Position numbers and translations under genes: made by a program
Part shown: piece after piece, positions 4,434 to 53,704 of the stretch
Layout of the letters: each line of letters begins with the position of its first letter
Numbering within the stretch: the first letter of the stretch is position 1
The notes under the pieces: model-generated
Databases searched by the model: none
What the model was told of the DNA's origin: nothing
The model's input: only the letters and a program-made list of their open reading frames with translations
Source: Bacteroidales bacterium
Lineage (GTDB): Bacteria > Bacteroidota > Bacteroidia > Bacteroidales > GCA-2748055
DNA: 64,000 nt
NCBI GenBank assembly: GCA_023138875.1
Contig: JAGLOO010000010.1
Coordinates: forward strand, 1-64,000
Direction of reading: 5' to 3'

Positions 4434-7400
4434 ATGAAAAATTATGTGCAAAGCTTTTCCGCAATATTCTTTTTTGTCTCAATAATTTCAATAATTCTTT
4501 TCAACTCTTCAGCCACAGCTCAAAATACCAGCTGGGTCAGTAATGGTCCGTTTGGCGGGCATATTAACTGCATCGCCATTTCGAAATCGAATCCGGAAAT
4601 ACTCTATGCAGGTACAGTACATGGCATTTATAAAACTGAGAATGGAGGGGATAACTGGTCTAAAGTAAATTTCCCGGACAGTTATAAGGTAACCTCAATA
4701 AAGGTACATTCTTCTAATCCTGACATTGTGGTTGCGGGTACATACCATAGTGGTGTTTACAGAAGTGGCAACGGAGGACAAAGCTGGAAATATATGGGAC
4801 TTTGGGACCAGGCAATAAACACGATGGCAACAGATCCAAACAACCCGGATGTTCTTTATTTTGGAACCGGTGAATTCCTCAGAAATCCTGATGATGAAGT
4901 AATTGCAATCTATAAAGTATCTGACGAATGGCAAACAGGCAGTCCCTTGAAATCCTGGGCCAATTGGAACGTTTGTGGGTGGAGCCAGGTTAATAAGATT
5001 GTAGTTGATCCTGACAGTGCAAACTGGATTTATGCAGCCGGAATAAATAGTGGTTACTGTTCAAATTTCGGGGGAGTTTTAATTAGCCAGGATGGAGGGG
5101 ATACATGGATCGATAGAAAAATTGGAACTTCAAGTACTGATCAGGTATCAAATATCACTGTAATTAAGAACAGCCAGGGAGAAAAGACAATTTTTGCAAT
5201 TTTTGGATTTGTTTATCTGTCATCTGATCTGAAGCTATTCAAATCTTCCGACATGGGTGAAAACTGGCAGGAGTTAGAGATCCCTTATGCCGGCAATATA
5301 AATCCGAATATTTTTAGGGTTCACCCGCAGAATCCGGGTTCCGTAATTATAGGTTCATACGATGTTGATAAGCCTCTTTGGATCTATAACAGTGAAACAG
5401 ATCATTGGGATTATATAAACGGAGTGGGCTTACCACCGGCAATTTCTCCTACTTGTATGGAAATAAGTTCAGGGGATGAAACTATTTATTACATGGCAAC
5501 CCGTTATGGTGGCATCTATAAATTTGATGAAAATGAAAACAGTTGGGAAAAAATTAATATTGGAATAAACAATTCACTGGTGAATGATCTTATTGTAAAT
5601 CCCAATGCCTGCAATATGGTATATGCTGCCACTGAAGAAGAATTAAAACTATACAAGTCAGCCGATGCAGGTTCTTCATGGGAATTAAATCAAAGCAATC
5701 TCTCTGCTTCATTTGATGTTTTAGCCGTCGATCCTGACAATCCTTCCACATTTTATGGAGCAAAAAGCGGGCTAACTTATCACAGACTTTTCAAAGGAGA
5801 AAATAATGGTCAATTCTGGACGGGCCCCATCGATTTTACTGAATGTCTGGGAAGTCCTTGTTACACAGAAATAACAGATATCCTGGTTAAACCCGGCAAT
5901 TCCGATGCAATCCTGGTGAGTACACAACCTTACTATCTTTCAAGTGGATTAACTGGTTTTGGAACCATTGCCCGCACAACAGACGGAGGTGCCAATTGGG
6001 ACAGATTAATCAGTGCACCGGGTTCGGCCATGGCAATTGACCCTCAAAATCCTGATGTAGTCTATATCGGGAAAGAGAGAGTGGGGCAGGTTTTTAAACT
6101 GCAGGATGCGTGGGGTAATCAGGTTGCAACAGAAATAACTCCTGATGAAGGAATTGAAAACGTTCAGGATATCATCGTCGATAACCAATCAAATCTATTT
6201 GTTGCAACCGAAGAGGGCTTGTGGAGAAGGGATGGAGAAGGTTGGGTGAAACTGAATTGTTTGGCAGACAATATTACTGCACTGGCTGTTGACAATTCCA
6301 GGAACCCGGCAGTAGTGTATGCAGGTAGCGGGGGAGATGGAATTTTTATGTCGGATGACAGTGGAGAAAGTTGGATGGTTTTTAACAACGGATTAGGTTG
6401 CCTCAATATTAAAAAACTGGCCGTTTGTGACACAATGCTTTACGCAGGCACCGAATATGGCGGTATGTGGAGCAGGGTAATCCCCGATACTCATTCGCCA
6501 TCTTTTTTAACCCATAGCACCGGAAACATGGAAGTTTCCGTATTCCATAATGGCTGCATCGGGCATGCAGGCCCAAATTGGACATATGGTGATGGATTAA
6601 TCTTTAAAGATAATACTGATCCGCTTTTCAATGCCGGACTAATTCTTGGAACCTCAGAAAGAGGTTACGTTAACGGCCAGTTAGGCGTTTTCAGGATTAA
6701 CAACGATTTTCAAAATACTTCTCCTATCTCAGGATTTGAAAACATTCCGGGAAGTTGGGATCAGAAAACAACATGTGTTTTTAACGACAATTCTTCACCT
6801 TCACCGCTTGGCATTCAGGTTGTTCAACAATCCTATTCAAATCATGGCGAGGACATTTTATTTCTTAGATATACTATGAAAACCAATTCAGGATCCCTGA
6901 ACGATCTGTATGTAGGATTGTTTGCCGACTGGGATGTGGGTGGAGGAGATTATCACGAGCAGAATCTTGGTGGTTTTGATTTATCATGGAATCTTGTTTA
7001 TCAGTATCTGGAAAGTGCCGATCCGGATCAGAATTATTACGGGATTGTAGCATTGAATGGAGTATCAGGAACACGAATCACAGGTACAGGTAGTCAACTG
7101 TATATACGTGATTCCTCTTTTGTTTGGATTTCGACAATAAACAACACGGAGATTACTGAATCGGGAGAATACAGGATGTGGATAGGCTCCGGCCCATTCG
7201 ATTTAAATGCAGAAGAGAACCTGCTGGTCAGTTTTGCCATTATAGCAGGTTCAACCCTGGAGGAACTTCAAGACAATGCTGAACTCGCTTTGCAGAGGTA
7301 CCAGGACCTGTTAACTAATATGGATGAAAAAAAGATGCGGCCGGGTGTGTTTACTCTTGAACAAAATCACCCAAATCCTTTTAGGCAACAAACAGAAATT

Positions 7401-41513: not shown

Positions 41514-41894
41514 TCAAGCTTGTTTACTTTTATCTGTGTAATCATCCTGTTGATGCTTATACATTTTCAGTTGATCTCTCAGTGAATCAATAATTATATC
41601 CTTATCATTTAGCCTTTCCTCCAGGTGGGAGATCAATCGGTCCTTTTCAGTGCAAGAGCTGCAATGTTCACATTTGGTCTCCTTATCATTTACTGCCTCA
41701 ATCCCATATTCCAACCACTCAATGCTCACTCCGAATCTCTGACAGATTCGGCTCAGCTTATCCTTTCGTGGAACTACTTCTCCTGAAAACCATTTGTGTA
41801 CCGATGACTCTGAAACATCTATCAGTTCCGCAAATTCTTCAATAGAATTACAATTACTTCTATAAACCTTTCTAATCCTGTCGCTTAAAGACAT
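41514..41894 (-). CDS. CI-like phage repressor without cleavage domain
   Basis: 126 residues. The N-terminal XRE helix-turn-helix (about 1-62) reads SIEEFAELIDVSESSVHKWF with the recognition helix in SESSVHKW. Instead of an S24 peptidase domain it has a Cys triplet, KCEHCSSCTEKD (about residues 73-84; C-x2-C-x2-C), and a short coiled coil (about 84-115, RLISHLEERLNDKDIIIDSL). Induction therefore cannot go through RecA-driven self-cleavage; the Cys group might sense metal or redox state (inference). It is transcribed away from the Cro-like gene across an operator region. Confidence 0.83.
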   Translation of the reverse strand: MSLSDRIRKVYRSNCNSIEEFAELIDVSESSVHKWFSGEVVPRKDKLSRICQRFGVSIEWLEYGIEAVNDKETKCEHCSSCTEKDRLISHLEERLNDKDIIIDSLRDQLKMYKHQQDDYTDKSKQA

Positions 41895-41968: not shown

Positions 41969-41984
41969 TTAGTAGTGCGAAACC

Positions 41985-41999
41985 TGCACTCTTAGTGCA
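41985..41999. promoter_or_regulatory. Operator-like palindrome 2
   Basis: TGCACT-ctt-AGTGCA, perfect and with the same 6-3-6 geometry as palindrome 1. A further AGTGC lies at 41974-41978, giving overlapping dyads. The half-site AGTGCA is also the word that fills the array at 52661-53006. Confidence 0.6.
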
Positions 42000-44970: not shown

Positions 44971-47900
44971 ATGAGTAGCAAAGGTATCCCGGAAGATGTA
45001 GCCACCCGGATCAAAGAGCGTGCGAAGCTGGAAGATATTGTTCCAGGATTAAAGAAATACGGTAAGGATCTGATCACCAAGTGCCCGTTCTGTGGCGATG
45101 AAGGGAAGGGAAAGGGATTGACAGTATCCCCGGCAAAGCAGATTTGGAAGTGTTTCTCCGGCTGTGGTAAGAGTGGCCTGGGTGCAGTAAGCTTTGTGAT
45201 GGAGAGCGAAAACCTGAATTATCCGGACGCGCTCCGGTACCTGGCCAGCCATTACAATATGTTCATCGAAGGGCCAGGATTGGATCAAATTATTCCATCC
45301 ACAAGCCACACCATAAAGAAGTCCCAGCCGAAAAAGCCCAGAGGAAAATCATATTGCCAGCAGCAGTTGGAGTCCTCGGGCCTCATAGTAGAGGATGTGA
45401 CCGTCTCGGTTAAGAAAGACAATAATACTACGATTGAGTCACCGGCATTCCGCTCCGGAACCCGGACGCAGTATGGTGATATCAACCCTGGTGATGGTGA
45501 TGATATGCTTATTTATTATTACGACCTGGACGGCCGGCCGGTCCTATTTAAGAAGGAGGGGAGCAAGGTGCAGCATCAGCTGATCAGGGTCCGGTGGCAA
45601 AATCCCCTGCAGCATCTCGACAAGAATGGTGATCCAATCAAATATCAATCCCCTCGAGGGTCGGGATCCCATATTTACATTCCTGAGCGGATCCGGAAGA
45701 TGTATCATAATTCCAGGAAGATTAAAACGCTGTTTATCCAGGAAGGGGAGAAGAAGGCAGAAAAGTGTTGTAAGCACAATATCCCATCTGTCGGTGTGAT
45801 GGGGATTAATAATCTTGGATATCAGAGTCAATTCCCCGAAGAGTTGCAATATATCATCCAGCGCTGCGAGGTGGACAGGGTGATGTTCATGCTTGATGCC
45901 GATTGGAGCGATCTATCTGAGCAGCTCACCCCTGGTGACAGGGTTGATAACCGTCCCTGGAGTTTTTATTCAGCGGTCAAAAACTACAAGGAATACATGA
46001 AAACCCTGGTTCCGCTGGGGCTCTCGCTGGAGATATATTTTGGCTATGTCCGGACCAATAAAAATGAGGAGAAAGGGATTGATGATTTCCTTGCCGGCAC
46101 GCTCAAGGGCCAGGAGAATAAGATGTCCAAGGATATTGAGAAGGCCATGTATGATAAGGAGGGTGATGGCAGGTACGTGAAAGTGCATAAGATCACCGAG
46201 GTAAGCGATACTTATATAATAGACCAGTGGCTCTTAAATGACCTTGATAAATTTGCTGCCCGGCACCGAGAGGTACTGGAGAAGATGGGGGAGTTCACCT
46301 TCCGGAAGATCAAGCGCCGGTTCAACGCAGAGGGCCAGGTTGAGATGGCTCAACCATTACTCCCTGAGGAGCAGTACTGGCAGGAGGATGAAATAGAATC
46401 CAATAGCGGATTAAAGAAAAAGGTGCTGAAATTCAATTATAAAAGATGTTTTAAATTCCTGAATAACCGCGGCTACTGGCGTATCCTTATGAAATCAGGT
46501 GAGTTCCGATTCATAAAGATCGATGGACCGGTGGTGGAGATTGTAGATACTTACCACATCAAAGATTTTGTTACAGAATTTACCGAGGAGCTCCGTGTTC
46601 ATGACGATGTATTGGAGATGATATACCGGGGAGGGCCTCAGTACCTTGGCTTCGAGAAGCTTTCCAACCTTAAGTACTTTACCCCGACCTTCGAGCGGGC
46701 TGAGCGCACCAGTCAGTGTTTGTTTTTCAAGGAAAGGATATGGGAGATCTCCGACGAAGGGATCAAGGAACTTCGCTACAGTGGGATGAAAAACAAACTC
46801 TGGAAGGATAAGATCATTGACTTTAATGCAGAGGTAGCAGATTCATTATTCGATGTCACCTGGATCACAGAGGACAATGCCTCCAAATTCCCCGGGTATT
46901 CACCAGGTGATTTCCATATGGGGTTTACCCATACCGGTCTTAAGTGTGATTTTTTAAGGTTCCTATTAAATACTTCAAATTTCTACTGGCGAAAGCGGAA
47001 GAAAGGACTGAAGCTCACTGATGAGGAAGAGGCCCTGACCACCCGCCATCTGCTAAACAAGCTTACTGCTATTGGTTACTTGCTTCATGATTATAAGAAC
47101 GATTCGGAGATGAAGGCAGTGATCCCCATGGATGGGACACAGAGTGAGGTAGGGGCTTCTGAAGGGAGGACCGGGAAGAGTATTATTGGGGTGGGTATTG
47201 AGTATGTGATCCCCCAGGTGTACATCGCTGCCAAGAGTAAGAAGCTTACTGAGGATAGCTTTATTTTCGGTGAGGTGACAGAGAAAACCAAGAACATATT
47301 CCTGGATGATGTACGTGCGAATGTCGATTTTGAGTTTTTCTTCCCACTGATTACCGGCAAGCTGAAGGTCAACCCAAAGGGTGGACAGCCCTTCACCCTG
47401 GGTAAAGAGGATACTCCCAAGTTGCTTATGACAACGAACCATGCGATCAATGGAGATACTTCCTCCTTTACCGATCGCCAGGCATACATGGCATTCTCTG
47501 ATTTCTACAATGACAGCCACAAACCTGTGCATGACTTTCATCAAAACTTTTTTACTGAATGGGGTAAGGAGCAGTGGAACCTGTTCTATAACCTTATGGC
47601 CAGCTGTCTGATGTTGTATTTCCGATCGCTTAAAGAGGGGTGGGTAGGCAGTGGCCAGGGTATTATCGATCCTCCCATGGGGAATATAAAAAGGCGGCGG
47701 TTGCGTCAGCTGATCGGTGAAGACTTTCTGACCTGGGCCGATGAATATTTCTCTGGTGAAGACAATGTTGAAACCTTCGGTACTCAGAAAAGAATGAACC
47801 GACAGCTGGTCCGGAAGGATGCGTATGATGATCTGCTGGATAAGAATCCCAACCTGCGCAAGTGGGTTACTCCCACCAATTTTGGAAAGAAGATCAAAGC

Positions 47901-48075
47901 CTTCTGCAAGTACATGGAATTCCATTACAACCCCACCAGGCCCAACAGGGAGGGGGTTGAGTTTGCCGATTTCCTCAGAGATAAACCCGGCGAGTCATTC
48001 ATTGGAGATGCAGATAAATCTGCAGGGCTTGAGTATATCACAATTGCGGATCAAGATTATTTTGAAGCATCATGA
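44971..48075 (+). CDS. Phage primase-helicase (zinc, toprim-like, SF3 ATPase)
   Basis: 1034 residues. The N-terminal CHC2-type zinc finger has Cys 38, 41, 61 and 65 (TKCPFCGDEG and WKCFSGCGKS). A toprim-like core follows with FIQEGEKKAEKCCKHNIPSV (about 253-272) and VMFMLDADW (about 307-315). The C-terminal half carries an SF3-like helicase: Walker A GASEGRTGKSIIG (about 728-740), Walker B NIFLDDVRAN (about 776-785) and a sensor-like LLMTTNHAIN. It would prime and unwind phage DNA. It overlaps the next gene by 4 bp (ATGA). Confidence 0.88.
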   Translation: MSSKGIPEDVATRIKERAKLEDIVPGLKKYGKDLITKCPFCGDEGKGKGLTVSPAKQIWKCFSGCGKSGLGAVSFVMESENLNYPDALRYLASHYNMFIEGPGLDQIIPSTSHTIKKSQPKKPRGKSYCQQQLESSGLIVEDVTVSVKKDNNTTIESPAFRSGTRTQYGDINPGDGDDMLIYYYDLDGRPVLFKKEGSKVQHQLIRVRWQNPLQHLDKNGDPIKYQSPRGSGSHIYIPERIRKMYHNSRKIKTLFIQEGEKKAEKCCKHNIPSVGVMGINNLGYQSQFPEELQYIIQRCEVDRVMFMLDADWSDLSEQLTPGDRVDNRPWSFYSAVKNYKEYMKTLVPLGLSLEIYFGYVRTNKNEEKGIDDFLAGTLKGQENKMSKDIEKAMYDKEGDGRYVKVHKITEVSDTYIIDQWLLNDLDKFAARHREVLEKMGEFTFRKIKRRFNAEGQVEMAQPLLPEEQYWQEDEIESNSGLKKKVLKFNYKRCFKFLNNRGYWRILMKSGEFRFIKIDGPVVEIVDTYHIKDFVTEFTEELRVHDDVLEMIYRGGPQYLGFEKLSNLKYFTPTFERAERTSQCLFFKERIWEISDEGIKELRYSGMKNKLWKDKIIDFNAEVADSLFDVTWITEDNASKFPGYSPGDFHMGFTHTGLKCDFLRFLLNTSNFYWRKRKKGLKLTDEEEALTTRHLLNKLTAIGYLLHDYKNDSEMKAVIPMDGTQSEVGASEGRTGKSIIGVGIEYVIPQVYIAAKSKKLTEDSFIFGEVTEKTKNIFLDDVRANVDFEFFFPLITGKLKVNPKGGQPFTLGKEDTPKLLMTTNHAINGDTSSFTDRQAYMAFSDFYNDSHKPVHDFHQNFFTEWGKEQWNLFYNLMASCLMLYFRSLKEGWVGSGQGIIDPPMGNIKRRRLRQLIGEDFLTWADEYFSGEDNVETFGTQKRMNRQLVRKDAYDDLLDKNPNLRKWVTPTNFGKKIKAFCKYMEFHYNPTRPNREGVEFADFLRDKPGESFIGDADKSAGLEYITIADQDYFEAS

Positions 48076-48314
48076 AAGAGCAGATAAACGATAGGGGATA
48101 TCGATTCTATCCATCGCTTCCGGAGAACACACGCCCGGGCCACCTGGTAGATTTCATGAAGGGAAGGAGTAAAAGGATCGGGATGGAATACCTGACCTAT
48201 AGTGATATCGCTGATGTGTATTACGTCAATGTTGTGCGCGAAGGAACCACCGGTGCCAGGATAAAGGAGTTCATCGATGCCGGGATGCTATATGTATTTA
48301 CTAACACAAACTAA
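48072..48314 (+). CDS. Hypothetical small phage protein
   Basis: 80 residues, beginning at an ATGA overlap with the primase-helicase stop. Mixed alpha/beta composition (SLPENTRPGHLVDFMKGRSK, TGARIKEFIDAGMLYVFTNT). Not recognised. Tight coupling suggests a replication accessory role (inference). Confidence 0.6.
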   Translation: MKEQINDRGYRFYPSLPENTRPGHLVDFMKGRSKRIGMEYLTYSDIADVYYVNVVREGTTGARIKEFIDAGMLYVFTNTN

Positions 48315-48318
48315 TATT

Positions 48319-48720
48319 ATGAATCAAACTATTTCTGCTCAGGCAATCGAAAGATTGCAACGCCACTCTCTGCAGGTTGTGCATCGAACTCTATCGCAGG
48401 AGAATATCCTAAAGGCAGTGTGCAGTGAATTTATGATCTCAAAGTTCATTATTCATTCAGGATCCTCTGCAGACCAGGCTGTGATCCCCCGTTCAGTTGT
48501 GTTTCTTTTTGCGATGCTCCTGGATGGGTATACTTTGAAGTCAACCGGCGCAGAGTTTGGAGGGAAGGATCACTCCACTGTTGTCCATGGATTAAAGTCC
48601 GTCGCCAGGGAGTATGATATCAACCGGCAGTTCCGGAAGAAGGTGGACCGGATCCGGATCCAGTTTAATATCTCTCCGGAGAGCTTTGATCTGCACATTA
48701 ACCGATGGAGGAGAAAGTGA
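48319..48720 (+). CDS. DnaA domain IV-like DNA-binding protein
   Basis: 133 residues from ATG 48319; an earlier Met at 48277 overlaps the previous gene. The C-terminal part matches DnaA domain IV: IPRSVVFLFAMLLDGYTLKS (about 60-79), then STGAEFGGKDHSTVVHGLKS with the GKDHSTVVH signature that reads the DnaA box. There is no AAA+ domain, so it binds but cannot melt an origin by itself. It probably marks the phage origin or competes with host DnaA. Confidence 0.85.
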   Translation: MNQTISAQAIERLQRHSLQVVHRTLSQENILKAVCSEFMISKFIIHSGSSADQAVIPRSVVFLFAMLLDGYTLKSTGAEFGGKDHSTVVHGLKSVAREYDINRQFRKKVDRIRIQFNISPESFDLHINRWRRK

Positions 48721-50894: not shown

Positions 50895-51419
50895 ATGCTT
50901 AAGGAACAACCTTCTGCCATCTCGGTTACTGATCAGAAAGCTCAGATTGAACAGGCATTATCCATGCTCACACAAGTTTTTGAGGGCATGGCAACCGATG
51001 CTGGTACGAGTGAGATATTGTATAAAATGGGTCTCGAAGATACATTATCTCGTATCGTTAAACAGATGATCGAGAATCCGGTTGAAGAGCTCTATGCCGG
51101 CATTCGTAAAATGAATAACGAGTTCTCTGGACTGCAGAAGATAATTATAAATCAATTCATCTTACTTTCAATTAAGAACTCAAGTCTCAGTGCCGCATAC
51201 CTGGAGAAGAATGACAACAATCCATTGACCTATCATCTTTGTCTGAAAGAGAATTCATTACCTAACCGGGGGAAGATAAGGAAGATGTTGGGTGCTTATA
51301 ATGATAATGAGATGGCCGAGCAGTTTCCGGTTATACTTCATTTCATTGATGAACAAATGCACTCAGAGTTGAAGAAGCAGTACTCCGACTCCAGCCTATT
51401 CGAAACGATTGAAGGTTAA
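50895..51419 (+). CDS. Hypothetical accessory protein upstream of HEPN-like gene
   Basis: 174 residues, almost all helical, acidic, with KMNNEFSGLQKIIINQFILL (about 78-97) as its most hydrophobic part. No catalytic motif found. It overlaps the start of the HEPN-like gene by 11 bp, so the two are made together. It follows a 240-bp AT-rich gap after the early phage genes. Possible partner or antidote for the HEPN-like protein (inference only). Confidence 0.6.
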   Translation: MLKEQPSAISVTDQKAQIEQALSMLTQVFEGMATDAGTSEILYKMGLEDTLSRIVKQMIENPVEELYAGIRKMNNEFSGLQKIIINQFILLSIKNSSLSAAYLEKNDNNPLTYHLCLKENSLPNRGKIRKMLGAYNDNEMAEQFPVILHFIDEQMHSELKKQYSDSSLFETIEG

Positions 51420-51810
51420 AGATCATATCGGAAAGGCAAAGCACAACGAGCGTTTCGTCTCAATGGTTGAAGAGCAATTTGGTTCTGATTTCCTTGATTG
51501 GTGTATCACTGCTGTATTTTACTCAGCACTTCATTATATGAGTGCTTTTATCGCTCATTCCAAGAAAAAAATTCCCACACGACACAGACAGACTCGTGCT
51601 CTGTTGGATCCAGAAGGAGAAAATACACTTTCTATGGAGTATATCCCCTATGAAGCATACAACGAATTGTATGAATATGCTCATAAGACTAGGTACCTGA
51701 AACACCATAATGGTATTGCATCGGCCGCTATTATCGAAAAGGATTTTAAAGAGTGTAAAACCAATTTGGGTATTATCAAGGAGTTTGTTGGGAAACACGG
51801 GATTCGCTAA
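51409..51810 (+). CDS. HEPN-like domain protein
   Basis: 133 residues, four-helix plan. FLDWCITAVFYSALHYMSAF (about 28-47) is typical of HEPN proteins, and RYLKHH (about 94-99) supplies an Arg-x4-His pair like the RNase motif of the superfamily. The start is TTG at 51409; no ATG precedes the first helix. HEPN proteins often act as RNases in toxin-antitoxin and abortive-infection systems, with a partner gene beside them. It is convergent with the DUF4145 gene and overlaps it by 4 bp. Confidence 0.65.
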   Translation: MKVKDHIGKAKHNERFVSMVEEQFGSDFLDWCITAVFYSALHYMSAFIAHSKKKIPTRHRQTRALLDPEGENTLSMEYIPYEAYNELYEYAHKTRYLKHHNGIASAAIIEKDFKECKTNLGIIKEFVGKHGIR

Positions 51811-52598
51811 GTAAGCTTTCTGCTTCTTTTCAACTCCTCCTGCAAAGCCTTCGTTTTTTTTGGTTTGACGAATATTTCATGAATTACAGATATGAACAGA
51901 TCATGGAGGCCTTTTGCATCATTCTCTGTGAATTCATGCAATGAAACATCTTTGTCTGGATGGGCTCCCTGATTGCCAATGTTCTTCACTAATTCAGAGT
52001 TCTCGTGGAAGACCTCAGTTAAATCAATATCCAAGGAGTTCTTGTTTGATTTCAACCATTCCAGTTGCAGAAATAAAGTTTTGCCTTTGGCCCCCAGAAC
52101 ATCTTTCGCGATTATCTGTAAAGCTCTTCTAAACAAAATAGCAGCTGCAATAAATTTGGAATGAGCGAGACAATAATTTGCCTCAATAACAGTATTTCTG
52201 AGCGATGTATGTTCTTCAGAAATGCTATTATTCAACCAGTTCTCTTCAGAAATTGGCAGCCGATAGAGCTCATAGCAGTTATACACTAATTTAGTTTCGT
52301 CATCTGCACCTTCGGCTTTTTGGATGAGAGGCTCTTCATTAAGTTGGACGGCCTGGATGAAACTCTTTCTTCGACAACTGGGGCATTCTACGAAAAATGT
52401 GATAAATCTAGGATAAGAGTATGTAGTATGGTATGTTTCTTGGAATGCTCGTGTATAAACCTTTAAAAAGACATCCCTGTTACATGCATTACACTTTTGA
52501 GCGAGTTCCCGTGAGTATTCCAAATTTGGAGAGGACAGAATCTTTTTATAGTTATTCAGAATGTATTTTTCGAATTCTTCTTTGTTCAATAATTTCAT
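51807..52598 (-). CDS. DUF4145 domain protein with zinc-finger-like N-terminus
   Basis: 263 residues. The N-terminal part has two Cys pairs, KCNACNRD (about 35-42) and VECPSCRRKS (about 69-78), likely a zinc ribbon. The C-terminal domain matches DUF4145: AAAILFRRALQIIAKDVLGA (about 150-169) and NIGNQGAHPDKDVSLHEF (about 210-227), with the conserved Asn-x-Gly-Asn...His signature. DUF4145 belongs to the wider HEPN clan and is often found in restriction and defence loci. It is read leftwards, against the phage genes, from a promoter expected in the 52,600-52,800 region. Confidence 0.8.
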   Translation of the reverse strand: MKLLNKEEFEKYILNNYKKILSSPNLEYSRELAQKCNACNRDVFLKVYTRAFQETYHTTYSYPRFITFFVECPSCRRKSFIQAVQLNEEPLIQKAEGADDETKLVYNCYELYRLPISEENWLNNSISEEHTSLRNTVIEANYCLAHSKFIAAAILFRRALQIIAKDVLGAKGKTLFLQLEWLKSNKNSLDIDLTEVFHENSELVKNIGNQGAHPDKDVSLHEFTENDAKGLHDLFISVIHEIFVKPKKTKALQEELKRSRKLT

Positions 52599-52816
52599 TG
52601 TGATTCAATTTTAATACCCTTCAAAATTCCCGCGTACCCCTTCCTTTTTTTTTAAATGAATAGTGCAAAGGTGCGCGAAAAATCGAAAAGTGCGGGATTG
52701 TCTGCACAGTTTTCGTTCAGAAATGTGATTTTTCAAATTCATGGAAGGGCTATTATAAGTATATTCTTTTATATTTTATCACTTTCTTACGAAAGTAGAC
52801 TATCATTAAAATAGGA

Positions 52817-52841
52817 AAAAAAACTGTGCAATCGTGCAGAA
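52817..52841 (+). repeat. Inverted repeat arm A (25 bp)
   Basis: Reads seven A, then CTGTGCAATCGTGCAGAA. It pairs with arm B (52982-53006) at 23 of 25 positions; the arms are 140 bp apart. Confidence 0.8.
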
Positions 52842-52885
52842 ACAATTAATTCGCTTTATGTCAATGCGTTACAGCGTTCAAAAAT

Positions 52886-52935
52886 AGTGCGCACTTCGTG
52901 CAGAAAAGTGCAAACAGTGCAGTGCAAAACAGTGC
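52886..52935 (+). repeat. AGTGC palindrome and tandem repeat
   Basis: The palindrome AGTGCGCACT (52886-52895) is followed by CGTGCAG and then two direct units, AGTGCAAACAGTGC (52907-52920) and AGTGCAAAACAGTGC (52921-52935). Together the block carries six copies of GTGCA or GTGCG. Confidence 0.75.
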
Positions 52936-52981
52936 AGAGCTAAATAACTGATAATCACGCAGTATAAAGGGTCGTCCGCAC

Positions 52982-53006
52982 TTCTGCACAGTTGCACAGT
53001 TTTTTT
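52982..53006 (-). repeat. Inverted repeat arm B (25 bp)
   Basis: TTCTGCACAGTTGCACAG followed by seven T; the complement matches arm A except at two adjacent bases. The T run also gives it the look of a transcription stop on the plus strand. Confidence 0.8.
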
Positions 53007-53146
53007 CCTTATTATATACAGGGGGTGTCTTGCGTGGTAGGTTACTCAAGGGTGATAACGGTGTTGAAGATCCAGGTAGAAATTCCTTCTTAGATGCATC
53101 TAAAATAAGTATTTTTCAGTGGGTTTTGATTGGAAAATTTCTTTTT

Positions 53147-53704
53147 ATGTACATCACAGTCGACATGGTGTTTTCGAAGGAGTATATCCGCAGGTTTGCT
53201 TTTTCGCTTTCGATAAATGACAAGGCGCTTGAGTTCAGAAAGCGGGATAAACTCAATACTCTTATCCGGAGCTACCTGGAGATCTCGCGCAAGGATCACA
53301 AACCAAAGTTCGGATCCGATATCACCAAGATCATTTTACCTATCAACGGCCGCTGGAGGTGTAATCCTGCGATGGAGATCCTGCCGGCAAGAAGTTTCAG
53401 GGACCTGGAGAGTGACTTCGAGGATCTGTTCTTCGCTTTGTTCCATAAGATCGATTCTGCCGGCTGCCTGGTGAAGGGAAAACGAAAGTATGCCCGGGAG
53501 AAGTATTTAGCTGCCTGTAACATCACCAATGAGGAGCTCCATGAGGATGCTTTTCGTAAACTTTTTGACCGGTTCCGCAATAAAAAAGAGGCCCAAATCA
53601 GCGCATTTTTGGAGAATCCCGATTTCGACCTTGTAACCTTCTATGAATCAGGCATAAAAAATTTTATACACTCAGACCCCGAAAATGTCCAGCTTTTATC
53701 ATGA
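53147..53704 (+). CDS. Hypothetical late phage protein
   Basis: 185 residues from ATG 53147; the frame is open back to a TTG at 53030, and ATG 53165 (MVFSKEYIRRFAFSL) is also possible. Mainly helical and basic (EFRKRDKLNTLIRSYLEISR, DAFRKLFDRFRNKKEAQISA). Not recognised. First gene of the late unit and coupled to the next gene by an ATGA overlap. Confidence 0.65.
   Translation: MYITVDMVFSKEYIRRFAFSLSINDKALEFRKRDKLNTLIRSYLEISRKDHKPKFGSDITKIILPINGRWRCNPAMEILPARSFRDLESDFEDLFFALFHKIDSAGCLVKGKRKYAREKYLAACNITNEELHEDAFRKLFDRFRNKKEAQISAFLENPDFDLVTFYESGIKNFIHSDPENVQLLS

Follow-up and report, generated by a model that had tools for sequence, protein, structure and literature searches.

An iteron array at the early/late boundary of a Bacteroidales prophage, probably a replication origin read by the phage primase-helicase

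What purpose is served by a dense array of GTGC words lying between the accessory and the late genes of a prophage? The array in question occupies 52661–53006 of a 64,000 nt stretch of contig JAGLOO010000010.1 from a Bacteroidales bacterium (the whole stretch is called the window), which holds the left half of the prophage, and the original prediction had left three roles open for it, namely a phage origin, a late-gene switch, or a special control of the adjacent HEPN/DUF4145 cassette. The first of these is favoured here: very probably, the array is the replication origin of the phage and is read by the phage's own primase-helicase (44971–48075). It is read as an origin because repeat binding by Rep of the Staphylococcus aureus pathogenicity islands (SaPIs) and by Cch2, and the origin layout of the phage-inducible chromosomal islands (PICIs), have been published (PMC7581432, PMC6092414; all PMC-numbered papers are cited for the portions of their text available to us).

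Anatomy of the array and its counterpart in a related contig

The array contains 16 GTGC/GCAC sites, in line with the approximately 17 copies within about 330 bp reported originally, and 2000 dinucleotide-preserving shuffles of the same stretch averaged 3.2 sites and never exceeded 10. Sites in + orientation are at 52663, 52671, 52690, 52826, 52834, 52887, 52898, 52908, 52917, 52922 and 52932, and those in − orientation at 52704, 52891, 52978, 52986 and 52994. Other 346 nt tiles of the window (10 nt steps, starts >400 nt off the array) hold no more than six sites each, and the array is local, as GTGCA is not enriched window-wide (86 found, 99 expected). In the prophage's own 4.79-Mb genome, a DNA search recovered the array and the mutual match of its two arms but no further copy.

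The sites form two sets, four to the left (cluster 52663–52707, with sites 52663+, 52671+, 52690+ and 52704−) and 12 to the right of an AT-rich block, TATTATAAGTATATTCTTTTATATTTT (52751–52777), which is a candidate unwinding element, and two iteron sets around an AT-rich region is the arrangement of PICI/SaPI origins. To the right of the block are an inverted arm on the + strand (52817–52841), consisting of an A-tract and then two iterons 8 bp apart, a central cluster (52886–52936) that includes the palindrome AGTGCGCACT (52886–52895) and direct repeats, an exact match on the − strand, WATCARNNNNTTR (52941–52953), to the IHF consensus, and the second inverted arm on the − strand (52982–53006), where two iterons 8 bp apart are followed by a T-tract. 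The 25 bp arms match at 23 positions in inverted orientation, as first described, and the best inverted 25-mer match in 300 shuffles was 22; a repeat search extends the pair to 52807–52841/52982–53016 (35 nt, 86%). Arms similar to these are present in many of 25 relatives tested. The tandem repeat noted originally is also present, here as 15 nt at 52912–52941 (87%). A C-rich tract, CCCGCGTACCCCTTCC (52629–52644), is perhaps a diverged version of the TCCCCCGYACCCCCT-type box described below, though it does not match the pattern used. Simple scans found one sigma-70-like site (1.9 in shuffles) and two terminator-like sites (0.6 in shuffles).

Contig L005, which encodes a protease 74% identical to that of the window, has an aligned homologue of the array (approximately 5680–6131) before the same first late gene, and the cargo open reading frames (ORFs) to its left (222, 204 and 446 aa) are unrelated to those of the window. 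Judged from this comparison, the array is part of the phage core and not of the HEPN/DUF4145 cargo, and since L005 keeps the element beside unrelated cargo, control of the cassette is unsupported as its main role. The two arrays match at 216 of 359 alignment columns and the AT-rich block is identical at 27 of 27 positions. Of the 16 window sites, seven read GTAC in L005, six keep GTGC, another has become ATGC, and the remaining two are lost or out of alignment; within the left cluster, two are GTAC, one is GTGC and one is misaligned. The same base is altered repeatedly at separate aligned sites, the pattern expected of a recognition word changing together. The position between an accessory gene and the first late gene, as originally described, holds, except that comparison with L005 moves the start of the late gene, probably, from the ORF start at 53030 to the ATG at 53147.

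Arrays in related phages

A profile scan with the capsid retrieved 45 viral and 19 genome loci, supplemented with named Porphyromonas gingivalis phages and a contig of one faecal phage; an initial scan of genome contigs and one viral scan had found no relative. The survey set consists of 65 capsid-anchored loci with upstream DNA, including the window. Loci without usable upstream DNA (L006, L009, L010, L017, L018, L047, L048, L056 and L059), L011, which is on the same contig as L005, and the short loci L020–L027 were left out, and the 65 include near-duplicates (e.g. L035/L068, L037/L070, L042/L072, L053/L083, L014/L028 and L015/L085). Relatives named in the profile scan are Bacteroidota.

An array was counted in 60 of the 65 loci, 52 by a tile test (p≤0.02) and eight by other tests, homology or reading (L005 by homology; L033, L045, L054, L055, L057, L067 and, separately, L046 by reading). 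Forty-seven of the tile-test arrays lie 2.2 to 2.6 kb before the capsid start and five (L049, L071, L073, L077 and L078) are displaced; in L073, L077 and L078, genes are inserted between the array and the first late gene or late operon. The tile test reached p≤0.02 in 58 of 65 loci and also fires on other repeats, as the best tile is not the array in six loci (L044, L046, L054, L055, L057 and L074). The repeats recur across relatives, a check proposed in the original prediction, with a word that varies: GTGCA, GTRC, AGTAC, CGTAC, AGTTC with AGCAC, GTAAC, TGTAA, TGACA, GACCA, GTCCAA, CCTACA and others were found.

Every one of the 52 tile-test arrays has two or more sites both to the left and to the right of its AT-richest 36-mer, a count run without a control and with the 36-mer sought between the outer sites, so that the flanking is partly built in; the stricter combination of at least two sites per side and AT of at least 33/36 was found in 17 of 58. 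The IHF consensus was found 28 times in 33 less redundant arrays (22 with at least one); the remainder of these loci predicts 2.2 sites, shuffles gave 2.9, and the AT-richest other tile per locus gave 6. A C-rich box of TCCCCCGYACCCCCT type, G-rich on the opposite strand, is present in 18 of the 33 arrays (0.03 expected), close to their left ends although their words differ (e.g. L084:10202–10216), and TGATWATC-type sites are in 11 of the 33 (1.1 expected, maximum 4); all three tests are post hoc, because the arrays themselves suggested them, and related arrays in these counts are not independent.

Five loci (L039, L044, L051, L065 and L074) are array-less, the early region of L044 being only partly in view, yet each of them retains the first late gene. 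The early region of L044 encodes a reverse transcriptase (L044:5105–6058; PHROG E 1.4e-124), and L039:5238–6293 looks similar by eye. An early protein of approximately 450 aa is found in three phages lacking both array and primase-helicase (L039:6399–7757, L051:6416–7768 and L074:6416–7768); it matched no Pfam family (L039 scanned) and no PHROG (L039 and L074 scanned), and is perhaps another replication protein.

The travelling partner of the array and the proposed initiator

These phages exchange modules and recombinants, therefore, show with which gene the array travels. Among 15 P. gingivalis phages (105 pairs, near-identical pairs kept; L062 dropped for want of a primase ORF), array identity and primase-helicase identity are correlated at r=0.95, and the partial correlation of the array with the primase-helicase given the first-late protein is 0.85, compared with 0.13 for the first-late protein given the primase-helicase. 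Individual pairs illustrate this: L028 and L088 share identities of 0.99 in the primase-helicase, 0.89 in the array, 0.64 in the first-late protein and 0.71 in the capsid, and L030 and L088 share 0.99 in the capsid, 0.65 in the array and 0.63 in the primase-helicase. In 12 pairs from three lineages, a block of 1.0–1.3 kb that is 94.8–97.3% identical adjoins the left of the array, and array (0.61–0.67), primase-helicase (0.63–0.70) and first-late protein (0.66–0.76) are all diverged. Between L013:6507–7578 and L015:6476–7540 there is a recombination block (96.8%) with its right edge close to the array; arrays seem to mark module borders.

A further comparison was entered with 16 type-A and 22 type-B loci, of which 13 and 12 were used, all Prevotella-type loci having fallen out. 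The partial correlation of array with primase-helicase given the first-late protein is 0.57 for type A (reached in 0 of 2000 permutations) and 0.50 for type B; that with the first-late protein given the primase-helicase is 0.02 (p 0.39) and −0.01. Iteron type thus co-varies with the initiator allele, weaker correlations with late genes remaining, and in natural recombinants the array is tied more tightly to the primase-helicase gene than to late genes.

The pattern of presence is similar. All 48 loci in which two models detected the primase-helicase have an array by our call. An automated gap test (p≤0.05) passes at the array in 35 of them; for the other 13, where the test picked a different gap or fell short of significance, the call rests on reading or the tile test. 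For 12 arrays, mostly on short contigs, the models detected no primase-helicase in the DNA in view. None of the five array-less loci matches the models, and L039, L051 and L074 have approximately 10 kb of upstream DNA without the gene. No + strand ORF of at least 100 aa separates primase-helicase and array in L038, L049, L064, L067, L073, L075 and L084.

The proposed initiator (44971–48075, + strand, 1034 aa) has a CHC2 zinc finger, a DnaG-like core and a helicase of superfamily 3 (SF3) resembling SaPI5 Rep, and the element thus encodes an SF3 primase-helicase of its own, as PICIs and SaPIs do. Its fold is predicted (AlphaFold2 model, predicted local distance difference test score [pLDDT] 79.7). 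The DnaG-like core (residues 122–426) gave Z 13.4 over 216 residues (root-mean-square deviation [rmsd] 3.8), and VIA-align matches the helicase best to the primase-helicase of SaPI5 (Z 19.7 over 344 residues, rmsd 4.2), followed by vaccinia D5 (Z 17.9) and, further down, NrS-1 (Z 14.1); Foldseek places other SF3 primase-helicases first and SaPI5 at rank 14 (E 1.4e-7). DUF5906 was found in five of 15 primase-helicase homologues. The P. gingivalis and Prevotella-type phages have a longer protein of approximately 1330 aa; in L085, the one scanned, it includes a complete DnaG-type primase. SaPI Rep recognizes its iterons via a C-terminal domain and the C-terminal domain of Cch2 binds direct repeats (PMC7581432). 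By analogy, we propose as the iteron-binding part the C-terminal domain of the phage protein (47788–48060, + strand, approximately residues 940–1030), whose helices and strands look winged-helix-like in the model.

A finer placement of specificity within the protein was considered and set aside. The difference between P. gingivalis word classes is largest at the C-terminus (approximately 0.20 compared with 0.03–0.05 in the helicase core), yet stretches near residues 100, 340 and 500 also differ by 0.16–0.17 and a single clone makes up one of the classes; nor do the C-termini of the two CCTACA groups converge. Other candidate binders were also rejected. The first-late protein is ruled out by the recombinants and by its presence in array-less phages, and the lysogeny repressor by the word TCCAA, which occurs with different P. 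gingivalis repressors, and by a 66%-alike repressor that occurs with two words. The stand-alone DnaA-domain-IV protein encoded after the primase-helicase (48277–48720; counterpart in L005 at 376–897) is rejected as a general binder, and with it a DnaA-box origin, as a pattern search of the DNA in view found its signature only in the window and L005 among the 65 loci, in which arrays are general.

From the likeness to the PICI, SaPI and Cch2 systems, we infer that the initiator binds the array, that the proposed domain does so, and that the DNA melts and replication starts within 52661–53006. After induction, the primase-helicase would bind the GTGC iterons, probably via the winged-helix-like domain, as two groups flanking the AT-rich block, and an IHF- or HU-like bending protein, acting at 52941–52953, may fold the DNA. 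The AT-rich block would then melt, SF3 helicase rings would load themselves and the fused DnaG-type primase would make the first primers.

The gene order in the window is primase-helicase, DnaA-domain-IV protein, HNH protein, cargo, array and late genes. The cargo comprises a HEPN gene (51409–51810, + strand) and a convergent DUF4145 gene (51807–52598, − strand), and the conserved first late gene is at 53147–53704 (+ strand). At E≤0.001, the product of the latter was found only in the window's own genome among 61 genomes (own, genus, family and order), and its AlphaFold2 model (pLDDT 73.8) has a best PDB match at E 0.48. Among the late genes are a head maturation protease and a major-capsid homologue, and an integrase-like gene (L008:225–1391) marks, by reading, the right side of the prophage. 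With protease, capsid homologue and integrase-like gene, it does not resemble a satellite, which would have no structural genes of its own. Further left are a gene for a CI/HTH_3-type repressor (41514–41894) and a LuxR-type gene (42255), and between them is a small cluster of AGTGCG, TGCAC and AGTGCA (41973–41999), which may have arisen by chance or may offer the array-binding protein an additional site.

Competing explanations and comparison with known systems

Several observations weigh against an origin that is read by the primase-helicase. The GC skew at four-fold sites has no sign change at the array (−0.10 left, −0.14 right, p 0.005; 57 loci) and is slightly lower on the right, opposite to a simple bidirectional origin; T-A skew does shift in the same 57 loci (0.00 to 0.08, p 0.0001), but array-less loci shift from 0.02 to 0.06 and the effect is not specific. 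L065 carries a 675-aa DUF5906 helicase, yet the site yielded no array. In the window, 4.5 kb lie between initiator gene and array, which is thus not immediately 3′ of the gene. Correlations with late genes persist after allowing for the primase-helicase, both in P. gingivalis (capsid 0.38, protease 0.45, second late gene 0.38), where one word class is a single clone, and for the capsid in type A (0.34, p 0.0035) and type B (0.54, p 0.0015); in type B, the capsid even correlates slightly better with the array than does the primase-helicase (0.83 versus 0.80). The IHF-type and C-rich tests were run on the very arrays that suggested them.

The residual correlations with capsid and protease are among the points that speak for a multi-site operator or enhancer that switches on or silences the late operon and is bound by the repressor, the LuxR-type protein or the first-late protein. 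The array is usually directly before the late operon, and IHF-type sites occur in promoters also. However, we consider this role unlikely. Recombinant arrays follow the primase-helicase and not the first late gene, that gene is retained in all the array-less phages, and genes separate array and late operon in the three loci with insertions, for which reasons the late-gene switch of the original prediction is disfavoured. The repressors and words, as described above, do not correspond, and the + strand of 52500–53200 contains no TAnnTTTG, the Bacteroidota −7 element. A structured non-coding RNA enclosed by the 25 bp arms, or an RNA-based origin, would account for the + strand of 52807–53016 folding far better than 200 shuffles (z −5.95), but the inverted arms drive this fold and inverted DNA sites would give the same. 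The change from GTGC to GTAC affects seven of 16 aligned sites, four of these outside the arms, the right-end site groups of GTCCAA and CCTACA arrays are, by reading, oriented as those after the AT-rich block, and no Rfam family reached the gathering threshold in the window; an RNA is very improbable indeed. Co-inheritance shows linkage to a replication gene and not initiation, and another site of the same module (for packaging, partition or incompatibility) could travel with the primase-helicase without being the start of synthesis. Phage P4, for example, possesses besides ori a separate iteron site called crr. An AT-rich block between iteron clusters, together with IHF-type sites, fits an origin better, the array is next after the primase-helicase gene in seven relatives, and we regard a site of this other kind as quite improbable.

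If the array is an origin, its address is fixed and its code appears to have been rewritten rapidly, the iteron word being replaced repeatedly together with the initiator (at least 10 words, 60 loci) while the AT-rich block and, in many, IHF-type sites and the C-rich box were kept. Such turnover may come from satellites or defences that read the origin, or from replication incompatibility between co-resident prophages, and initiator binding before the late operon may time late expression; we offer this scheme tentatively, as a possibility that is rather doubtful at present. A family of full-size Bacteroidota phages would gain a predicted origin recognizable by eye, with a possible use in phage-derived replicons for Bacteroidota, and the natural matched primase-helicase/iteron pairs could reveal how SF3 initiators change DNA specificity.

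The alpha protein of phage P4 is likewise a primase-helicase fusion that recognizes repeated short sites, in an origin apart from the initiator gene, but P4 needs a helper phage. The nearest parallel is with PICIs and SaPIs. PICI origins always consist of two iteron sets flanking an AT-rich region, a layout described as common to no other known bacterial element (PMC6092414), and the original statement that no described element has such a layout was, hence, too strong. In PICIs and SaPIs, as in the array phages, initiator alleles differ between elements (PMC6092414, PMC7581432), the helicase has the SaPI5 Rep fold, and the array directly follows the initiator gene in some relatives, as SaPI origins directly follow rep (PMC7581432). 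Unlike them, the window element is a temperate phage of full size that encodes an integrase and its own homologues of capsid and head protease; its array adjoins cargo at the early/late boundary, 4.5 kb away from the initiator gene, and it has inverted paired-site arms and a DnaG-type primase, the SaPI primases being of the archaeo-eukaryotic type (PMC7581432). Cch2 of the staphylococcal cassette chromosome SCCmec likewise falls in the SaPI5 Rep class of helicases and uses its C-terminal domain to bind direct repeats beside its gene, but it belongs to a cassette element with few repeats (PMC7581432). The NrS-1 primase-polymerase shares the SF3 helicase fold (Z ~14) and a mid-genome recognition sequence proposed as origin, and differs in having two single 8-nt sites, an archaeo-eukaryotic-type primase and a protein that acts as a polymerase (PMC7102993, PMC8718748). 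A literature search returned no title or abstract opening on such an array in Bacteroidota phages, and the available portion of PMC10367356 does not mention an origin. The iteron-origin kind is thus already known and the phage setting and word turnover appear to be new: as far as this search extends, the novel features are the setting in full-size Bacteroidota phages, the separation from the initiator gene next to a cargo slot, the arms of inverted paired sites and the repeated rewriting of the word at one address, by which an origin layout of the PICI/SaPI type would be extended to complete phages.
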